From: a bacterium | GTDB lineage: Bacteria; Pseudomonadota; Gammaproteobacteria; Pseudomonadales; Moraxellaceae | Direction: 5' to 3' | Length of the DNA: 64,000 nucleotides | Assembly: GCA_029945725.1 (NCBI GenBank) | Contig: JAQSDB010000008.1 | Coordinates: forward strand, 186,001-250,000 | In this document: positions 30,140 through 43,691 of the stretch, in pieces | Layout: every line of letters begins with the position of its first letter | How positions within the stretch are numbered: the first letter of the stretch is position 1 | The notes under the pieces: model-generated | Told to the model about the DNA's origin: nothing | Database searches by the model: none | What the model saw: only the letters and a program-made list of their open reading frames with translations | Translations under genes and position numbers: made by a program

Positions 30140-30394
30140 CACACCCAGGCTCAAGCTGACTCCCGTTCACACGGCATCCTGTCCCTGCACGCGCAAAACC
30201 ATCACTCCGTACCGTCAGCCCCGCTTCATCCCCGCGCCCCTCCTCTTGTCGCATACCCCTCCTGACCAAGCGGTTTTCTGCGCACATGGCGCAGCCTTGA
30301 ACTAGGCTTTCCGTGCTTCTGCCGTCAGTCCACTCCTCAAGAAATGCATTCACCGGCTGACGTTCAGCAGCCCCCATCACTGAGCAGGGAAGCC

Positions 30395-31615
30395 ATGACT
30401 GTTGCACCGGAACCCGACTACCACCGCCTGTTCGAGGCCATACCTGGCCATTACCTGGCGCTCAGCCCGGATCTGGTGATTCTGGCGGCAAGTGACGGCT
30501 TTCTGCGTGCCACCATGACCCGGCGTGACGAGATTACCGGCAAGCACCTGCTTGAGGTATTCCCGGACAATCCGGATGAACCCCTTGCCCATAGCGGGCT
30601 CAAGCTTCAGGAATCCATGAATCGCGTGCTCGCCACACACATGGCCGATTACATGCCGGTATTGCAGTTTGATGTTCGTCGTCCGCTGTCTGTGGGGGAC
30701 GGATTCGAGGAACGCTACTGGACTGTCAGCAACTACCCCGTGCTGGATGCCGATGGCAGGATCCTCTACCTCCTTAATCACGCCGAGGATGTGACAAAAT
30801 TTTTCCTGATGAAAAAGGACAGCACGGAAAAGGAAATACTGCACGAGAAAAACCGCCTGCATACCATCAACATCGAGGCCGAAGTTTATCGGCAGGCACA
30901 ACAGATAGAGGCCAGTAACCGCAAGCTTGAGCAAACCAATGCCGATTTGGAAACCTTTTCCTACTCGGTATCACATGACCTGAAAGCGCCACTGCGCGCC
31001 CTTGACGGCTTCGCCCGCCTGTTGATGGAACGGGCACCAGACCGCCTCGATAATGAAGACAACCGCCTGCTCGGCATTATCAGAAGCAGCAGCAATTCCA
31101 TGGCACGGCTGATTGATGACTTGCTGCATTTCTCCAGAATCGGCCGCAGCTCCCTTCGCCATAAAACCATCAACATGAAAAAAATGGCGGAAGAAGTATG
31201 GCGCGAATCCAGCGCAGACTACACCGGCCAGATCCGCATTGATGAACTCCCCGACGCCATAGGAGATGAAGCCCTTATCCGGCAGGTCTGGATCAATATT
31301 CTCGACAATGCCGTCAAATACAGCTCAAAAAAAGAAGCCGCCCAAATAACCATCAGCGGCACCATCAACCACACCGGAAGCCAGTATCACATCCGCGACA
31401 ACGGCGCCGGCTTTGATATGCGCCACATCGACAAGCTGTTCAATGTCTTTCAGCGCCTGCACAAACCGGATGACTTTCCCGGAACCGGCATAGGGCTGGC
31501 GATTGTCGAGCGCATCATCCGGCGCCATGGCGGCAATGTATGGGCCGAAGGCAGCCCCGGAAAGGGTGCCGGTTTTCATTTCTTCTTGCCCAAGGAAGAA
31601 GCACCACATGACTAA
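30395..31615 (+). CDS. Cytosolic PAS-domain sensor histidine kinase
   Basis: A soluble kinase of 406 residues (423 if the in-frame ATG at 30344 is used; GGGA upstream of 30395 is the better ribosome site). A PAS domain (about 10-125; YHRLFEAIPGHYLALSPD) is joined by a coiled coil to a phytochrome-type kinase core. The H-box is SVSHDLKAPLRALDGF, the N-box NILDNAVKYSS, and DNGAGFDM and GTGIGLAIV follow. No membrane helix is present. The receiver-EAL gene begins 74 bp downstream and is the likely phosphorelay partner. The 30140-30394 gap holds no other recognisable gene. Confidence 0.88.
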   Translation: MTVAPEPDYHRLFEAIPGHYLALSPDLVILAASDGFLRATMTRRDEITGKHLLEVFPDNPDEPLAHSGLKLQESMNRVLATHMADYMPVLQFDVRRPLSVGDGFEERYWTVSNYPVLDADGRILYLLNHAEDVTKFFLMKKDSTEKEILHEKNRLHTINIEAEVYRQAQQIEASNRKLEQTNADLETFSYSVSHDLKAPLRALDGFARLLMERAPDRLDNEDNRLLGIIRSSSNSMARLIDDLLHFSRIGRSSLRHKTINMKKMAEEVWRESSADYTGQIRIDELPDAIGDEALIRQVWINILDNAVKYSSKKEAAQITISGTINHTGSQYHIRDNGAGFDMRHIDKLFNVFQRLHKPDDFPGTGIGLAIVERIIRRHGGNVWAEGSPGKGAGFHFFLPKEEAPHD

Positions 31616-31689
31616 GCCGCCAACACAAGGCTCAAGGTGTACCGAACTTTTGACGGTAAAAAATACTCATGCATGAGAATGAGACATTG

Positions 31690-33810
31690 ATGAAAGCAAT
31701 ACGAATACTGCTTCTGGAAGACAGCCCTGAGGATGCCGAGCTGATACAAGCCGAGCTGATCCGGGGCGGCCTTGACATTGAAATACACAATGTCGCCTCG
31801 GAAGAGCAATTCATTACTTCACTGGTCTCCTTCAAACCGGACATCATTCTGGCGGACTATACCCTTCCCGGCCTTGATGGCATGACAGCCCTGACCATAC
31901 GCAATGAAAGGGCATGCGACACCCCTTTCATTTTCGTCACCGGATCACTGGGGGAGGAGCGCGCCATTAACACACTGAAGGCTGGCGCCACTGACTATAT
32001 CCTGAAAGACAATATGTCTCGTCTCGCCACCTCAGTGGCCCGCGCCCGACAGGAAACCGAGTACAAGAAAGAAAAAAGCCGCATTGCCACTGACCTTGAA
32101 AGAGAAAGAAAGCTGATCAGGTCGATACAGGACACGGTCAAGGCACTGATCATCGTACTCGACAGCAATGGCCGCATTCTGCACGTCAATCCCGAGGCCG
32201 AACGGGTACTCGGCTCACTGTCACCTGTCTTGATCGGATCGGTTTTCTGCAGCACTTTTATTTCAGCCGATGATGTAAAAATCACAAATCATCACATGCG
32301 CATGGCCCTGAAAAATAACCGCCAGAGTGCCAATGTCTGGCGCACACGAACCCGAAACGGTCATAGCATCATGTGGTCAACGAGCGGCATCACCACAGAG
32401 GAATGGCAAAGCAGCCGCATTTTATTGTGCGGCGTCAACATCAGTGCACAGGAAAGCGCCGAGGAAAAAGCTCACATTCTTGACAACTTTGACCGCGCCA
32501 CCGGACTACCCAACCGCAAACTTTTCCTGCAACAACTCGGTCAGTATTGCAGCGACTTCCAGAGTGACACGAACAAGAAGATCGTGGTCATGATGATAGG
32601 TTTGCCGCGCCTTCAGGAAATACAGAACAGTTGTGGCGAAGCCGTCACCAATCACTTGCTTAATGCTCTTGTGCAACGCCTGCGAACCTGGCAAAGCGAC
32701 CATGGATTACTGGCACGCGTGAGTGACAATGCATTTGCCATTGCCTTCAAGATCAACAAAGACGAACTAACGGTAGTCGTCCCGCAGATTCTGGAATCCC
32801 TGCGCCAGCCGGTCTATTTCGAAGATAAACACTTTGTGCTTCCTGCCTACGGCGGTACGGCTGTTTATTTGCGCGATGCCGATGAACCGACACTGCTTTT
32901 ACAGGCCGCAGAAACAGCACGGCAGAGTGCAGAGTCTGCAAAAGAGCAGGGTTATGTCTTTTATACATCGGTGATCTCAACAGAGGCGCAGGAACGCCTG
33001 CAGCTGGAAACCGACTTGCGTCTGGCACTGAACACCCCCAACGAGTTGCTGATGCACTATCAACCGCAAATCGACATCAACACCGGCAAGATCATCGGCC
33101 TGGAAGCACTGGTGCGCTGGCAACACCCGCGGCGGGGCCTGTTGGCCCCTGACACCTTTATTCCTGCCGCCGAAAGCTGCGGCCTCATGCGTGATCTCGG
33201 CTGGCGGGTCCTGCGCGAAACCTGTTGGCAAATAAGGGCATGGCAGCAAGCGGGACTGAATCCTCCGCTGGTGGCGATCAATCTTTCTGCCAGCCAGTTT
33301 GCGGAGCCCCTGTTGCCGGAAAACATAGCAACCATACTTCAGGAGTTCGGCCTGGACGCTTCACAAATCGAGCTGGAGCTGACCGAGTCCACCAGCATGA
33401 GCAATCCTGAAGCCACCATTCTCATCATGACGCAGCTGCGCAATCGCGGCATACGCCTGTCCATTGATGACTTTGGTACGGGTTACTCCAATCTCAGCTA
33501 TCTGAAACGCTTTCCTATTGATTGCCTGAAACTCGATCAGGCTTTTGTGCGTGACATCGCCACAGATGCCAATGATCTGGCCATCGCCGAGGCCATTATT
33601 GCCATGGCGCACAAGCTGGGACTGGAGGTCATTGCAGAAGGCGTGGAAACGGAGGAACAGCTGCTGCTGCTGGGCAAGGCCGGATGCCATACGATTCAGG
33701 GCTATTACTTCAGCCGTCCGCGCCCGGGTCAGGAGTGTGCCGGCATGCTCAGCCAGCATTTCAGCATGCCGGACACCGTGAAAAACCTGCGTGGCGCTGC
33801 AGGTTCATAA
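31690..33810 (+). CDS. Receiver-PAS-degenerate GGDEF-EAL cyclic-di-GMP phosphodiesterase
   Basis: A 706-residue modular regulator. A receiver (about 1-120; phospho-acceptor Asp56 in ADYTLPGLDG) is followed by a PAS domain (about 145-260). A GGDEF-like domain (about 275-430) reads SDNAF at the signature, so it cannot be a cyclase. The EAL phosphodiesterase domain (about 445-690) keeps EALVRW, the NLS, ELTES, DDFGTGYSNL and EGVET motifs needed for catalysis. The start at 31690 places the receiver at the N-terminus; 31669 is an alternative. It is expected to lower c-di-GMP when phosphorylated by the kinase encoded upstream. Confidence 0.9.
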   Translation: MKAIRILLLEDSPEDAELIQAELIRGGLDIEIHNVASEEQFITSLVSFKPDIILADYTLPGLDGMTALTIRNERACDTPFIFVTGSLGEERAINTLKAGATDYILKDNMSRLATSVARARQETEYKKEKSRIATDLERERKLIRSIQDTVKALIIVLDSNGRILHVNPEAERVLGSLSPVLIGSVFCSTFISADDVKITNHHMRMALKNNRQSANVWRTRTRNGHSIMWSTSGITTEEWQSSRILLCGVNISAQESAEEKAHILDNFDRATGLPNRKLFLQQLGQYCSDFQSDTNKKIVVMMIGLPRLQEIQNSCGEAVTNHLLNALVQRLRTWQSDHGLLARVSDNAFAIAFKINKDELTVVVPQILESLRQPVYFEDKHFVLPAYGGTAVYLRDADEPTLLLQAAETARQSAESAKEQGYVFYTSVISTEAQERLQLETDLRLALNTPNELLMHYQPQIDINTGKIIGLEALVRWQHPRRGLLAPDTFIPAAESCGLMRDLGWRVLRETCWQIRAWQQAGLNPPLVAINLSASQFAEPLLPENIATILQEFGLDASQIELELTESTSMSNPEATILIMTQLRNRGIRLSIDDFGTGYSNLSYLKRFPIDCLKLDQAFVRDIATDANDLAIAEAIIAMAHKLGLEVIAEGVETEEQLLLLGKAGCHTIQGYYFSRPRPGQECAGMLSQHFSMPDTVKNLRGAAGS

Positions 33811-33926: not shown

Positions 33927-35204
33927 TTACACAGACTCCGGTTTGAAGCTGTGCATGCCATCCCTGTCTCCCGGAAGAGAAATGCCGGCTGCATAACGCC
34001 AGGCATCACGCCCCGCATGCTTGGCCTCATAAAGCGCATCATCCGCCGCACAAACCAGCTCGCCGGGAGCCACCATGGACGTATCCGGCATTGCCACCGC
34101 CACACCGATACTGATGCTGACACAGCTGCGCGCCAGGCCGGGTGCCTGTGGCAACCGGGCATCACGGAATGACTGCAGCAATCGCTCCGCCACTTGCATG
34201 GCCGCTTCCTTGCCGGTTTCCGGGAACATCAGCAGAAATTCCTCGCCACCATAACGCACGGCCAGTTCGCCGGGACGGCGCGCATGTGAAGCAATCAGGC
34301 TGGCGACCTGGCGCAGGCAATGGTCGCCAGCAACATGGCCCAAGGTATCGTTGTAATGCTTGAAGTGATCAATATCGATCATCAGCACGGCGATGGGAGT
34401 CTGCTGACGGGCTGCACGACGCCACTCTTTTTGCATCTCTTCATCAAAGTGGCGACGGTTGGCAATGCCGGTCAGGGAGTCCTGGCGCGCAAGCCGGTCG
34501 AGCTGGCCGGCATACTCTGCCGTGTGGTCATTGGCCAGCTGCAGCAGGCGCGCCTGAATGTACATTTCCCGGTCACGGCGCTCAGCGTAATAAGCGAGGT
34601 ACATGCCGAGCAGGCTGCTGCCGGTATAGGTCCGGTGCAGCAGCCCCCAGTCGACAGCTCCGCCCAGCACCAGCGCAAGCACCGTACCGGCCAGCCCCCC
34701 CAGCCAGCCAGCATAGAGGGCATGCTTGAAACGCAGGCCGACCACCCCGTAGATAATGACCATGGCATACATGATGGCCGCCTGGGTGAGCTGGCCGGCT
34801 ACCGGATCCCTGACCACGCCGGTTACGGCGACTGACAGCGCCACGGAGCCAAAGCAGCCAACTCCCGCATAAGCGGCAAACCAGTTATCCAGCAGGGAAA
34901 TACGCGACATCAGGCCGGCCAGAATAACGATCACGCCTACCCAGCCATAAAGCGAAAGCCAGCGCACCACGTCCTGCTCCGGCATGAACAGGTAAATACC
35001 GGAACTCAGCAGCAGATAAATCAGCAGGATGAAAACCGAACTGAAACGAAACGCCTTGACCGCCCGTGCGCGATGATCGCTGTCGTAGTCCAGCTCCAGC
35101 TTGCCGCCAAAATCCAGACGCCAGCCGCTGCGATGCGCATAGGCCGCAATGTCGTCCTGTTCCCCCTGCGAAAACGCCCGGAGGTTCTCTGCGCCGTTCT
35201 GCAT
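33927..35204 (-). CDS. Membrane diguanylate cyclase (GGDEF)
   Basis: A 425-residue protein. It has a cytoplasmic N-terminus, about six transmembrane helices (residues 52-205), a short coiled coil and a GGDEF domain (about 240-405) with an intact GGEEF signature (319-323). The usual inhibitory RxxD site reads RPGE (310-313), so product feedback may be weaker. The start at 35204 follows AAGGAAGAG; a longer frame to 35303 lacks a ribosome site. It is convergent with the EAL gene, an opposing enzyme next door, and would synthesise c-di-GMP in response to a membrane signal not identifiable here. Confidence 0.9.
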   Translation of the reverse strand: MQNGAENLRAFSQGEQDDIAAYAHRSGWRLDFGGKLELDYDSDHRARAVKAFRFSSVFILLIYLLLSSGIYLFMPEQDVVRWLSLYGWVGVIVILAGLMSRISLLDNWFAAYAGVGCFGSVALSVAVTGVVRDPVAGQLTQAAIMYAMVIIYGVVGLRFKHALYAGWLGGLAGTVLALVLGGAVDWGLLHRTYTGSSLLGMYLAYYAERRDREMYIQARLLQLANDHTAEYAGQLDRLARQDSLTGIANRRHFDEEMQKEWRRAARQQTPIAVLMIDIDHFKHYNDTLGHVAGDHCLRQVASLIASHARRPGELAVRYGGEEFLLMFPETGKEAAMQVAERLLQSFRDARLPQAPGLARSCVSISIGVAVAMPDTSMVAPGELVCAADDALYEAKHAGRDAWRYAAGISLPGDRDGMHSFKPESV

Positions 35205-35490
35205 CCTGCTCTTCCTTGCCAGCCAAAGGCCTGCACACGGGCTCTGCCGAGCCTGAGGGCCTGTTGGTCGGAAATGGCTGATTCCATAAACGCACACAGG
35301 CATGTGCGGCAGCTACCATTGACGCACCCGGAGAAATCAGTATGAATGCTCAGGGCTTTGTCACGAGTAGAGCATAGCGCCGGATTCCGGTGCTGCCATT
35401 TATCCCCGACAAACACATGACATTGCCATGACATCGCGGGACGCCCAGGCTTGACTGCGGCGCCGCCCCGACTCGCAAAGAGGATTTGCC

Positions 35491-36264
35491 GTGACCGTCC
35501 AGGAAAAAAAAGAACAATACGGACATATCGAGCGCAGCCCCCATCCTGAATGGGCGCAGCAATTCTGGGACGAGCTGGTCCCTCTGAAGGATCGTATTGC
35601 ACAACATCCGCTATTCCGGGAAATGGCCGGCGGTCAGCTCTCGCTGCCGAGATTCCGTCATGCCCTGCTCAACTTCTATCCACTGGTGGGCAATTTTCCG
35701 CACTACATGAGCCTGACCCTGTCCAAGGCCTATGAGGCCAATGTACCGGGCGTACTGGAGTCGCGCGACTGGCTGATCAATAACATCAAGATCGAACAGC
35801 GCCACCTTTACTGGTACCGCGACTGGGCCATGGGCTTTGGCATCAGCGCCGAGGCACTCGACAGCGTGACCCCGCCCGCTGCCATGGACGCCATCAATCA
35901 CTATCTCTGGCACATCAACCAGCGTGGCAGCATCGCCGAAGGCATTGCCGCCACCAATCTCGCCATCGAGTGGGCAACCGGCGACTGGACCGCGTCCGTA
36001 GTGCACGGCATGAAAGCCTATGCTGACCGTGGCGAGGCCGAGCTTGGCCGCCGCACTATGGCCTGGCTGCGCGCCCATGCGCATTACGATGATGCCCATC
36101 CCTATGAAGCCATGGAGCTGGTGAAACGTCTCTGTGGCCACAACAAGTCCCTGCAGGAAAAGTCTTTCGCTGCCGCCAGACGCGGCATGGAGTATTACCT
36201 GCTGGCGCTTGATGCCTGTTATGCCGCTGGCGAACCCGTCGCCAGCCAGGGAACGCAAGGCTAA
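35491..36264 (+). CDS. UndA-like non-heme diiron oxidase (TenA/PqqC-like heme-oxygenase fold), candidate fatty-acid decarboxylase
   Basis: A 257-residue all-helical protein. Candidate metal ligands are Glu102 and His105 (ExxH), Glu160 (TNLAIE), and His196-x3-Asp200-x2-His203 (HAHYDDAH). This set and its spacing agree with the diiron oxidase branch of the heme-oxygenase-like superfamily, specifically UndA of Pseudomonas, which converts medium-chain fatty acids to terminal alkenes. The flanking stretches WLINNIKIE and ATGDW are also UndA-like from memory. GTG start after AGAGGA. Monocistronic, closed by a terminator. The family is often misnamed TenA; substrate here is inferred. Confidence 0.8.
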   Translation: MTVQEKKEQYGHIERSPHPEWAQQFWDELVPLKDRIAQHPLFREMAGGQLSLPRFRHALLNFYPLVGNFPHYMSLTLSKAYEANVPGVLESRDWLINNIKIEQRHLYWYRDWAMGFGISAEALDSVTPPAAMDAINHYLWHINQRGSIAEGIAATNLAIEWATGDWTASVVHGMKAYADRGEAELGRRTMAWLRAHAHYDDAHPYEAMELVKRLCGHNKSLQEKSFAAARRGMEYYLLALDACYAAGEPVASQGTQG

Positions 36265-36302
36265 CGTTGCCGGCCCCAAAAATCCGAAGAAATCCACGCA
36301 TT

Positions 36303-36331
36303 AAAAAAGGAGCCGATGGCTCCTTTTTTAT
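36303..36331. terminator. Bidirectional terminator between the UndA-like and SDR genes
   Basis: AAAAAAGGAGCC pairs with GGCTCCTTTTTT around a 3-base GAT loop. It lies between convergent genes and can serve both strands. Confidence 0.85.
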
Positions 36332-36368: not shown

Positions 36369-37430
36369 TCAGGCCTCGGCCAGCATGCGGTGACCGCGGA
36401 AATGCTCCACCACCGCAGGGTCGGTGATATAGCCGTGCTCGACAAACCAGGCAATGGCATCGCGCAGGGTTTCTTCAATCGGACGCACCGTCATCCCCAG
36501 CTCATGCCGTGCTTTCGAGGCATCGGCAATCAGACCCTTCTTGGTGATGTCGAGCTCCACCGGCGTGGTGAACGGCGCTTTTTTCGTGATACTCGCCAGT
36601 GCTGTCAGTAACCACGCTGCCGGCTTCAGGGCGTCCGGCGGCAATACGATCAGGGATCGCTTGAGGCCGGTGATGCGCAACGCTCGGCGCACAATGTCTT
36701 CGTGCGTGTAGTTCTCGCCACCGAGAATGTAACTCTCGCCGGTACGGCCCTTTTCCAGCGCCAGCACATGACCCATGGCGCAATCACGCACATCGACATA
36801 ATTGGCCTCGGTAGCCAGCGCGATGGCTACCGGCGTACGGAAAAGCTCGGTGATGATTTTTCCGGTGGGTGTCGGACCGACATCACCGGGCCCGACCGGC
36901 GCGGCAGGGCACACAATAACGACATCCAGACCCTTGCGTGCATAACGCTCGGCCAGCTTGTGCGATTCGTATTTGGTGCGGCTGTAATGCGAATTACCGA
37001 GTGCAAAGGTTGAACGTTCATTGCATGCGGTATCCAGACCCTGCCCGGCAAACACGGCAAAGGAGCTGGTGTAGACCACGCGCTTTACACCCTGCTGCAG
37101 GCACTCCTCCAGCACCAGGCGCGAGCCGTCGACATTGACCCTGTCCATCAGGCCCATGTCGGGCAGCCAGAGCGCATAAATCGCGGCGAGATGAAACACC
37201 ACATCACAGCCGGCAACGGCACGCTTGATGTCCTGTGGATTCAGCAGATCACCCGCCACCAGTTCAAGGCCCTGCACACCGTTCAGGTTGAGCAGGTTCT
37301 CTCTGGGCAGATGCAGCACCCGCACGCGTGCCTCGGGATAACGACGGCGCAGCAACTTGACCACATTGGAGCCGATAAAGCCGGCACCGCCGGTCACAAG
37401 AATCTGCTGGGGGGAAGAGGAAAGCGGCAT
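36369..37430 (-). CDS. NAD-dependent epimerase/dehydratase (extended SDR; HpnA- or OleD-like)
   Basis: A 353-residue extended short-chain dehydrogenase/reductase. The NAD(P)-binding motif GGAGFIG (about residues 13-19) starts the Rossmann fold. The catalytic pair is in the YSRTK motif (YxxxK, about 150), with an upstream Ser in YTSSFAVF. The closest remembered types are the hopanoid-associated HpnA group and dihydroflavonol-reductase-like enzymes. No hopanoid or olefin (ole) genes are nearby, so substrate is unknown. The ATG at 37430 is adopted; a GTG at 37466 is in frame and neither has a strong ribosome site. Confidence 0.85.
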   Translation of the reverse strand: MPLSSSPQQILVTGGAGFIGSNVVKLLRRRYPEARVRVLHLPRENLLNLNGVQGLELVAGDLLNPQDIKRAVAGCDVVFHLAAIYALWLPDMGLMDRVNVDGSRLVLEECLQQGVKRVVYTSSFAVFAGQGLDTACNERSTFALGNSHYSRTKYESHKLAERYARKGLDVVIVCPAAPVGPGDVGPTPTGKIITELFRTPVAIALATEANYVDVRDCAMGHVLALEKGRTGESYILGGENYTHEDIVRRALRITGLKRSLIVLPPDALKPAAWLLTALASITKKAPFTTPVELDITKKGLIADASKARHELGMTVRPIEETLRDAIAWFVEHGYITDPAVVEHFRGHRMLAEA

Positions 37431-37573
37431 AGAAGTATTCCGGTTCTTTTTTGACTTTATGGTCACGGAACTTACCTTATGTCCCTCCGTCTGGGTAGGG
37501 GGGCCATGATCCGGGGCTGCCCCGGCAGACGGAAGGGGAAGGCAGACTCAGCCGCTACACGGCATCAAAACGG

Positions 37574-40604: not shown

Positions 40605-43600
40605 ATGGAACCAACAAACGACACGCCAATTCATGGAAAGAATTGCCCTATGAAGTCACCCGATACCGGATCGTCACTCGAGGCGCCTCCCCTCCCGCCC
40701 GTCGCGATGTCGGCTCCCGCCATGTGGACGTTGGCTCCCCCGCTGGCCCTGATCGGTCTGACCCTGCTGGCCGGTGCCGGTCACTTTCCGCTGTTTCACA
40801 CTCTGGCCGAATTGTTATCAACCTCCATCGCCATGACAGCGTTCCTGATCGCAGCGACAACACGGCTGCTGACCAGAAGCCAGTTTGTCGTCTGGATCGT
40901 TATCGGCCTGGGCTGGAGCTCACTGCTGGACTTCGGACATTTCCTAATACTCCAGGAGATGACACTGACGCCCGCCGAAAGCACCAACCTTGCGGCGCAA
41001 CTATGGCTTGTCGCTCGTTTCATGCAGGCCATGGCCTTTATCTCCGCCCCCCTGCTGCTGCGCTACCGAGTCCACATCAGCTTCATGCATCTCTGCTTCG
41101 GACTGGCAGCAGCAGCAGGTGCTGGCCTGATCGCCACTGGCCATTTTCCGCAGGGCTATGCCGAAGGACAGGGCCCGACAACCTTCAATACCCGAAGCGG
41201 ATACCTGCTCATCCTCATTCTGGTCAGCACACTGGTTTTATTCTGGCGGGATCGGCGAATGCTGGCGCCCAGCCTCTACTGGAGCCTGGGCACCACACTG
41301 CTATCAATGATACTTGCCGAGTGCGCACTCATTTATGTCAATGTTTATGAGTCGGCAAACCTGGTTGCCCATGTGCTCAAGATCGTCAGCGCCTGGTTCA
41401 TTTACATAGCACTGATCCAGAACACCCTGCGCGACCCCTTCGTCACCATATCCCGCGCCGCCAACAGCTACGATGCGGTGCCTTTCCCCACGATCATTAC
41501 TCAGGCTGATGGCCTGATCTGCCAGGTCAACCTTGCCGCAGCGCATTTTGCCGGCATACCGGCAACGCATCTCATTGGTCGCCGCAATCATGATGTGTTT
41601 CACAATGCCGCTACGCCCCGTGAGGATTGCCCCGTGTGCGCCATCGCTCAGCACGAAACGCGCTCAGTGGAAGGCATCGAGATCCGAAAGGGGCAGGCAA
41701 CGTACGAACACAGCGTGGCTCCTGTTGCGGGAGCGCCTGCAGATGCCCTCCTTGTCGAGGTCATTCGCGACGTCACCGAGCAACGAAGACTGGGATACCT
41801 CTATGAAATGCTCAGTGCGGTTAACCGCGCCATCTTCAACTGCCGCAGTACCGACGGCCTGGTCTCCTCGCTGTACGACATCCTTGTGGGCCGCAGCGCA
41901 TTTTCGATGCTGGTGATTGCCAAAACCGCAACAGGCACCATGCCACTCCATGTTGTGCGCTCATATGGCATCTCTGCTGTTGGCCTGAGCAAACTGGAGC
42001 GGAGCCTTGCAGACAGCCGTAGCGGTTTCGCGAAAGTGTTTCCCGAACTCCGCAAAGGCGAACTGGTGTATGGCGTGCTGTCGACCGACAGCATAGAGGA
42101 TGAATGGCAGGCCTTTCAGTATGCCGAAGGCATCAGGGCCAGGGCGATCATGCCCCTGCTCTGCGACGGGGAGTTGTGTGGTGTGGTCGGGCTTTATGCC
42201 GACAGCCCGAATGCATTTGACGCCGCGGAACTGCGCCTGCTCAACGAAATGGCAGCCGACATGACGCTGGCACTCAATGCACTGACCGCCGAAGAAAACC
42301 GTCAGGCTGCTGAAAAAAGGGCCGGCCTGTCCGAAGCCCGCTTCAGTGAAGTGTTCGAAGCAGCTCCGATCCCCATGCAGATTGTATCGCTGGCAACAGG
42401 AGAAAACCGCACGATCAACGCAGCACACCAGCAGTGGCTGGGCTACGCCCCTGAGGAAATCCGGCGCGAGGAGGACTGGCTTGAGCGGGTTTTTGAGGAC
42501 CCAAAATTGCGGCATATGGCGCAGGAATCATGGTGGCAAGACTGCGCGGAAGCAAAAACCATTCCCGCCTCCCAAGGGAAAACCTCGCCGGAACTCACAC
42601 TGCGCTGCAAGGATGGCAGTCATCGTATTGGCCGCGGCACGATGATGCTGATGGGCGATGAAGCCATCATTGCCTGGATTGACCTGACCGACATGCACAA
42701 CAATGAAGTGGCGTTGCGTGAGAGTGAACAACGCTTCCGCAGCATGATTGAGCAGTCCGTCTCCGGAATCTACGTGCATCACAACGCAAAATTCCAGTAC
42801 GTTAATCCGCGTTTCTGCGAAATCATGGGCCGGAGCAAAGCAGAGCTGATCAATCACGACCTGATGGATTTTGCCCTGCCCACTCCAGAAAACCTCAAGA
42901 GCATTAATGATGGCTGGGAACAGTTGAAGGCTGGTGCGCACAATACCGCCTATTCAATTCAGGTTTGCCGCAAGGACGGCACGGTGATCGAGCTTGGCAT
43001 AAACGCCGCACCGATCGTCTGGAGCGATCTGCCCTCGACGATCTCGATGGCGGCAGACATTACCGAGCGCAAGCGCGCAGAGGCGCAGATTGCAAGCTAT
43101 GTGCTTCAGCTTGAAGCCTCAATGAAAGGAACGCTGCAGGCCGTGTCCAACATGGTGGAGCTGCGCGATCCCTACACCGCCGGACATGAACGTCGCGTCG
43201 GACTGATCGCTTCTGCCATCGGGTGCAAGCTGGGGTGGAATACGGAGCGCTGCGCAGCCATTGAAATGATCGGTCTGGTACACGATATCGGCAAGATCGC
43301 CATACCCGCAGAGATCCTCTCCAAACCCTCACGCCTGTCGGAAATGGAAATGGCACTGGTCAGGGGGCATGTGCAGGCAGGCTATGACATCCTGCGTGAG
43401 GTGCCGTTCCCCACGCCGGTGGCAGAAATCATTTACCAGCACCACGAACGCATGGATGGCAGCGGTTATCCGCGCGGCCTCAAGGGGGAGGAAATCCTGA
43501 TCGAGGCGCGCGTGCTGGCCATTGCCGACGTGCTCGAATCAATGTCATCGCACCGTCCCTACCGCGCGGCCCTCGGGATACATGCCGCCATCGCCGAACT

Positions 43601-43691
43601 GGAGCGCGGCCGGGGTACTCAGTACGACTCGCTCGTGGTTGATGCCGCGATGGACCTGTTGCGCAACGATAACTACGAGCTGCCACTGTAA
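40605..43691 (+). CDS. Seven-helix membrane sensor with PAS-GAF-PAS-PAS modules and HD-GYP c-di-GMP phosphodiesterase
   Basis: A 1,028-residue signalling protein. The N-terminal membrane part has about seven helices (residues 40-265). A PAS domain follows (about 288-390) with a CxxC pair (DCPVC). Next come a GAF domain (about 400-560), two further PAS domains (about 580-690 and 715-835) and a C-terminal HD-GYP domain (about 845-1015). The HD-GYP domain has intact HDIGKIAIP, YQHHERMDGSGYP and ADVLESM motifs. It should degrade c-di-GMP in response to ligand or redox input. An alternative start is the ATG at 40650, which has GGAAAG upstream. The preceding 535 bp is non-coding. Confidence 0.9.
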   Translation: MEPTNDTPIHGKNCPMKSPDTGSSLEAPPLPPVAMSAPAMWTLAPPLALIGLTLLAGAGHFPLFHTLAELLSTSIAMTAFLIAATTRLLTRSQFVVWIVIGLGWSSLLDFGHFLILQEMTLTPAESTNLAAQLWLVARFMQAMAFISAPLLLRYRVHISFMHLCFGLAAAAGAGLIATGHFPQGYAEGQGPTTFNTRSGYLLILILVSTLVLFWRDRRMLAPSLYWSLGTTLLSMILAECALIYVNVYESANLVAHVLKIVSAWFIYIALIQNTLRDPFVTISRAANSYDAVPFPTIITQADGLICQVNLAAAHFAGIPATHLIGRRNHDVFHNAATPREDCPVCAIAQHETRSVEGIEIRKGQATYEHSVAPVAGAPADALLVEVIRDVTEQRRLGYLYEMLSAVNRAIFNCRSTDGLVSSLYDILVGRSAFSMLVIAKTATGTMPLHVVRSYGISAVGLSKLERSLADSRSGFAKVFPELRKGELVYGVLSTDSIEDEWQAFQYAEGIRARAIMPLLCDGELCGVVGLYADSPNAFDAAELRLLNEMAADMTLALNALTAEENRQAAEKRAGLSEARFSEVFEAAPIPMQIVSLATGENRTINAAHQQWLGYAPEEIRREEDWLERVFEDPKLRHMAQESWWQDCAEAKTIPASQGKTSPELTLRCKDGSHRIGRGTMMLMGDEAIIAWIDLTDMHNNEVALRESEQRFRSMIEQSVSGIYVHHNAKFQYVNPRFCEIMGRSKAELINHDLMDFALPTPENLKSINDGWEQLKAGAHNTAYSIQVCRKDGTVIELGINAAPIVWSDLPSTISMAADITERKRAEAQIASYVLQLEASMKGTLQAVSNMVELRDPYTAGHERRVGLIASAIGCKLGWNTERCAAIEMIGLVHDIGKIAIPAEILSKPSRLSEMEMALVRGHVQAGYDILREVPFPTPVAEIIYQHHERMDGSGYPRGLKGEEILIEARVLAIADVLESMSSHRPYRAALGIHAAIAELERGRGTQYDSLVVDAAMDLLRNDNYELPL

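Follow-up and report, generated by a model that had tools for sequence, protein, structure and literature searches.

The window, by which we mean the whole 64,000-nucleotide stretch of Moraxellaceae DNA analyzed here, carries on its forward strand an intact open reading frame of 257 codons (35491..36264) that encodes a 257 aa heme-oxygenase-like diiron oxidase resembling UndA. It starts with GTG, a few bases after a putative ribosome-binding site, AGAGGA (35478..35483, forward strand), for which the alignment of congeners has an AGGGGA-like block. Immediately upstream, on the reverse strand, lies the gene for a membrane diguanylate cyclase (33927..35303; Pfam GGDEF, 1.5e-46), with an intact active-type motif, RYGGEEF, and an N-terminus of six transmembrane (6-TM) segments, which is kept as the partner of undA in Moraxellaceae. 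The spacer between the two genes (35304..35490), the presumed site of both promoters, measures 187 bases when the cyclase is taken to start at 35303 and 286 bases with a start at 35204, near which the true start probably lies. Since the upstream gene is divergent, undA shares a 187-286-base intergenic region with the cyclase, and the placement of the oxidase gene between two terminator-bounded regions in the preliminary description holds for the downstream side alone. There, a strong bidirectional intrinsic terminator (36302..36330; 13-bp stem, -17.3 kcal/mol, z -4.6) separates undA from a convergent gene (36369-37466, reverse strand) for an HpnA-like sugar epimerase or SDR protein, whose HpnA score of 308.9 bits falls short of the 367.65 cut-off, and to which OleD-type reductases match more weakly.

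No match to a sigma-70 consensus promoter was found in 35304..35490, and the congener alignment of this region, which is poor, revealed no conserved regulator site beyond the ribosome-binding site and some short blocks. TAGAnCAT-like and CGTCGCCGAC-like blocks recur 5' of undA in some congeners (35304-35490 in the window and the same region in L009-L015), and are possible candidates for a promoter or regulator site. In the window, three c-di-GMP genes lie near one another: a response-regulator PAS-GGDEF-EAL gene (31669-33810, forward strand) with a histidine kinase (30344-31615), the 6-TM GGDEF gene and a gene of the MASE3-PAS-HD type (40605-43691, forward strand). Among these, the 6-TM GGDEF gene alone is conserved beside undA in relatives.

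The undA gene is present in a single copy in the window genome (3.34 Mb, 99% complete), in eight of the nine genomes of its genus and in about a quarter of Moraxellaceae genomes, the closest named loci being from Moraxellaceae MAGs (72-75% identity). One locus with 80% identity (L009) is titled as a 'Pedobacter sp.' MAG; its DNA is that of the window's Moraxellaceae genus, on the same contig as G008, and the title is evidently that of a mislabelled record. A phage or plasmid context for the window undA was considered and rejected, as the matches were confined to a plasmid collection and there was no sign of mobility. The record of an 847-kb conjugative plasmid of P. aeruginosa (L043) includes the rbdA-undA region with hpd and its neighbors, the likely explanation being capture of chromosomal DNA or wrong assignment of the replicon.

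Affinities of the oxidase

UndA is the characterized family nearest to the window protein in sequence. A phmmer search of the PDB recovered UndA (3OQL, 4WWJ, 6P5Q) over residues 13-246 with E-values of 2e-44 to 2e-43, which excludes a chance match, the next family being CADD/4-aminobenzoate synthase (PabS) at E 0.02; the identity to UndA is about 35%, as against 13-23% to TenA, PqqC and CADD. All the ligand residues that had been named at the outset for this reading frame are indeed present (E102, H105, E160, H196, D200 and H203, a 3-His/3-carboxylate diiron set) and, along with W192, are invariant across 95 of 95 aligned UndA-type proteins. W192 is the counterpart of the redox-active W190 of UndA, the Trp at which the radical starts (PMC13108848). 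An AF2 model of the window protein (pLDDT 87.5) displays the heme-oxygenase-like 7-helix fold, with UndA as its top structural match (Foldseek 1.1e-13, Z 26.9) and CADD as the second (Foldseek 6e-7, Z 24). Its size, fold, six ligands, redox Trp and single soluble domain are those of Pseudomonas UndA (PFL_4321-type; 4WWJ, 4WWZ, 4WX0, 6P5Q, 3OQL). Thus, sequence, ligands, predicted fold and tree together support its designation as an UndA-like diiron oxidase, and this part of the preliminary description stands.

The Pfam models Haem_oxygenas_2 (6e-16) and, more weakly, TENA_THI-4 (6e-11) both match the protein, and relatives are automatically annotated as 'TenA family transcriptional regulator'. 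Nevertheless, that it is a TenA, PqqC or CADD protein is most improbable: the fold is shared and CADD is the nearest non-UndA structure, but the NCBIfam scores lie far under the cut-offs both for TenA thiaminase II (equivalog, 24.6 bits against 130) and for CADD (subfamily, 46.2 bits against 200), the aligned TenA and PqqC sequences lack the six-ligand set, and every ranking is headed by UndA. PqqC, at 13-18% identity, forms a branch apart, and no NCBIfam PqqC match was obtained. CADD (1RCW, 8VA9) has the same fold and 3-His/3-carboxylate ligands but is just 20% identical, with far weaker matches, and its loci L062 and L063 have no c-di-GMP neighbor within 1.5 kb flanks.

In the tree, the UndA-type proteins fall into two sister clades (supports 94/93 and 97/97). 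Clade A unites the window genus with Acinetobacter, Alkanindiges, other Moraxellaceae and a few further gammaproteobacteria (the family f7 and HTCC5015), whereas clade B contains the UndA of Pseudomonas along with proteins from Burkholderia/Caballeronia and the family f21. The union of A and B, as opposed to the very distant CADD, TenA and PqqC, is supported at 95 in a quick tree and at just 81/49 in a careful tree; it is the pairwise scores that bear out their kinship. The two clades have 33 positions in common at ≥95% and 12 that are differently fixed; the latter include L157/Tyr, W161/Gly, R104/Asn and Y109/Trp beside the metal ligands. The preliminary description had named a placement outside the UndA clade as an outcome that would count against its reading, and the tree shows this outcome in part: UndA is the nearest relative of the window protein, but the protein lies outside the clade of characterized Pseudomonas UndA and in its sister clade, and a tree forcing it into clade B is disfavored (AU p 0.029). 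Its substrate is therefore inferred from a relative rather than from a fellow member of the characterized clade. It marks an uncharacterized sister clade of likely alkene-forming enzymes in Acinetobacter and its relatives. The Acinetobacter homologs (56-60% identity) belong to the same clade and have the same divergent 6-TM diguanylate cyclase partner; they differ in genus, and functionally nothing sets the window protein apart from them. Taken alone, the enzyme is ordinary: it is one more homolog of a familiar type, and UndA had already been recorded in this family.

Linkage of undA to c-di-GMP genes

We surveyed the gene neighborhoods of 89 distinct UndA-type loci from both clades, with flanks of about 5 kb. 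A gene with a GGDEF and/or EAL domain lies within 1 kb of undA in 84 of the 89, being its direct neighbor in nearly all; in one more (L079) the neighboring c-di-GMP gene is truncated and runs off the contig end, bringing the loci with a partner to 85, with four that have none. In three of these four (L164, L165 and L167, all of f7), undA directly follows a MoxR-DUF58-TgpA (transglutaminase) operon. By comparison, the more distant parts of these flanks, beyond 1 kb from undA and 704 kb in all, hold just two GGDEF/EAL genes. In the controls, none of 20 PqqC loci has such a gene adjacent, nor has any of a further 23 heme-oxygenase-like or PqqC loci (1.5-kb flanks), where one occurs at the far edge of L064. 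The window genome encodes 26 GGDEF domains, from which the likelihood of a chance adjacency comes to about 2% for one locus. Because many of the loci are closely related, the strength of the linkage lies in the diversity of its arrangements.

There are at least six such arrangements: a divergent 6-TM GGDEF gene in Moraxellaceae; an upstream gene for a 6/7-TM GGDEF-EAL protein in HTCC5015 and the genome G051; an upstream gene of the RbdA type in Pseudomonas and Burkholderia; a downstream RbdA-like gene in f21; and, in f7, either a downstream GAF-PAS-GGDEF-EAL gene or a downstream convergent TM-GGDEF gene. Mapped on the tree, these amount to ten changes of arrangement, and the sensors of the partners are of at least four types with absent or weak mutual matches. 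In P. aeruginosa, undA directly follows the gene of RbdA/PA0861 (identical to PDB 5XGB), a biofilm-dispersion phosphodiesterase that controls dispersion (PMC10294637), and the neighbor in Burkholderia and Caballeronia is likewise a PAS-GGDEF-EAL gene. Thus, RbdA, too, is a c-di-GMP enzyme directly adjoining an undA, but its TM-PAS-GGDEF-EAL architecture and its upstream, co-directional gene differ from the divergent, GGDEF-only, 6-TM partner in the window. In P. fluorescens-type genomes (L068, L069, L070, L071 and L072), c-di-GMP genes occur on both sides of undA, with the RbdA-type gene upstream and, downstream, a convergent gene whose product of about 310 aa is a soluble GGDEF protein.

The open-access literature yielded no work in which UndA or a heme-oxygenase-like diiron enzyme is connected to c-di-GMP or to a diguanylate cyclase. 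The linkage may be new, though specialists may have noticed it. It is the larger result of our analysis and is absent from the preliminary description, whose reading of a volatile made by one gene omits the conserved partner gene. Both the linkage and the co-inheritance described below are correlations.

The 6-TM sensor of the partner cyclase

The 6-TM sensor domain of the cyclase (34488..35204, reverse strand) has no sequence match in Pfam or the PDB. Across 149 Moraxellaceae genomes, using thresholds of E < 1e-40 (ortholog level) for the sensor and E < 1e-80 for UndA, both are found in 39, UndA only in none, the sensor only in one and neither in 109. While much of this co-occurrence is explained by the physical adjacency itself, the genome G019 has kept both though they are unlinked. 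A related sensor (E ~1e-6) is fused to GGDEF-EAL in G051 and HTCC5015, where it again adjoins UndA.

The sensor model (pLDDT 81.6) is closest to P. aeruginosa ImcA (8WCN; Z 14.6), followed by the 6-TM domains of mammalian adenylyl cyclases (AC5, AC8 and AC9; Z 10-12). In each of these a 6-TM unit, predicted in the case of the window protein, is joined through a signaling helix to a nucleotide cyclase, but their identity to the window sensor is 14% and, with Z-scores that are modest for a helical model, the likeness to 6-TM cyclase anchors is only suggestive. Some such anchors, those of adenylyl cyclases, are reported to act as lipid receptors (PMC11606603, PMC12505454). From the literature alone, the sensor might also be likened to CqsS, a 6-TM quorum sensor whose ligand is a C13 hydroxyketone and which is able to drive a cyclase (PMC4821796).

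Possible roles of the oxidase and its partner

By analogy with UndA, alkene formation by the window protein is plausible and likely. The soluble oxidase would hold two Fe(II) on its six ligands, and a medium-chain fatty acid would bind there through its carboxylate; reaction with O2 would give a peroxo-diiron(III) species, and oxidation of the substrate would be attended by loss of CO2 to leave a terminal alkene, which would be 1-undecene in the case of dodecanoic acid. In Acinetobacter, A. baylyi ADP1 with an empty plasmid yields 4.46 ug/l of 1-undecene, a trace that Luo et al. (2019, PMC6410514) regard as likely due to the Acinetobacter UndA homologs, and which rises 93-fold upon introduction of a Pseudomonas UndA. 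The existence of these homologs goes back to Rui et al. 2014, cited to that effect in PMC6410514. 1-Undecene in breath is also listed as a marker of infection by A. baumannii (PMC7111428); this species has a clade-A gene with an adjoining, divergent diguanylate cyclase gene. The volatiles of A. guillouiae, in turn, were below detection (PMC10791660). Emission of 1-undecene by Acinetobacter is accordingly reported at the level of whole species.

Given a c-di-GMP gene beside undA in both clades, we consider it rather probable that UndA-type diiron oxidases and c-di-GMP turnover proteins constitute one functional unit, with the divergent 6-TM diguanylate cyclase as the partner here and RbdA-type or other GGDEF/EAL proteins in other lineages. 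The gene linkage is an observed feature of these genomes; as to what passes between the oxidase and the cyclase, we infer that a lipophilic substrate or product of UndA most likely serves as the cue for the membrane sensor of the cyclase. Alternatively, c-di-GMP status and alkene output might be co-adjusted during biofilm growth. More specifically, and tentatively, we propose a hydrocarbon (or fatty-acid) signaling module, in which the membrane sensor of the partner, in the window a 6-TM domain resembling those of lipid-sensing cyclases, would detect the product or substrate of UndA and set c-di-GMP levels, and would thereby be the receptor through which 1-undecene signals in the biofilm. Deletion of undA in P. 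fluorescens MFE01 impairs biofilm maturation, which pure 1-undecene restores, with swimming and mucoidy unchanged; c-di-GMP is nowhere mentioned in that study (PMC10614000). 1-Undecene is reported as an airborne signal that promotes maturation of the P. fluorescens biofilm (PMC10614000) and as an odor cue for worms (PMC8246062); neither paper states by what means bacteria perceive it. That the linkage is present in the two UndA clades alike, while gene order and sensors vary, points to candidate 1-undecene receptors and suggests that hydrocarbon production and biofilm control form one module.

A simpler reading, to which we give somewhat less than an even chance, is that the enzyme is a plain equivalent of UndA that releases 1-undecene as a volatile, and that its c-di-GMP neighbors reflect shared lifestyle or growth-phase regulation with no molecule exchanged. 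The family, ligand and fold evidence for the enzyme applies equally to this reading. Further, expression of undA in P. aeruginosa is raised in old lawns (PMC8246062), and 1-undecene is under Gac control in P. fluorescens (PMC5114270, PMC11841057), Gac being a system that also governs lifestyle. However, such co-regulation does not easily explain the constancy of a c-di-GMP partner across shifting sensors, domains and gene orders.

It is also possible, if rather unlikely, that clade A has a different substrate, for example a medium-chain acyl signal with a double bond, a hydroxyl group or some other modification, which the enzyme would make or destroy and the partner would read, with alkene formation being absent or a side activity. 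Fatty-acid-type signals are paired with c-di-GMP enzymes elsewhere, as in RpfF/RpfR. Consistent with such a divergence, clade A stands separately and has fixed residues peculiar to it around the metals, crystals of UndA contain modified C12 acids (beta-hydroxydodecanoic acid in 4wx0), and A. baylyi makes just the traces of 1-undecene mentioned above, with the strong rise brought about by the Pseudomonas enzyme (PMC6410514). Against it, the ligands and most core positions are common to both clades, and the type of partner is the same in both: the UndA of Pseudomonas, even with other residues fixed beside its ligands and a co-directional RbdA in place of the divergent 6-TM GGDEF protein, is likewise linked in the genome to a c-di-GMP turnover gene.
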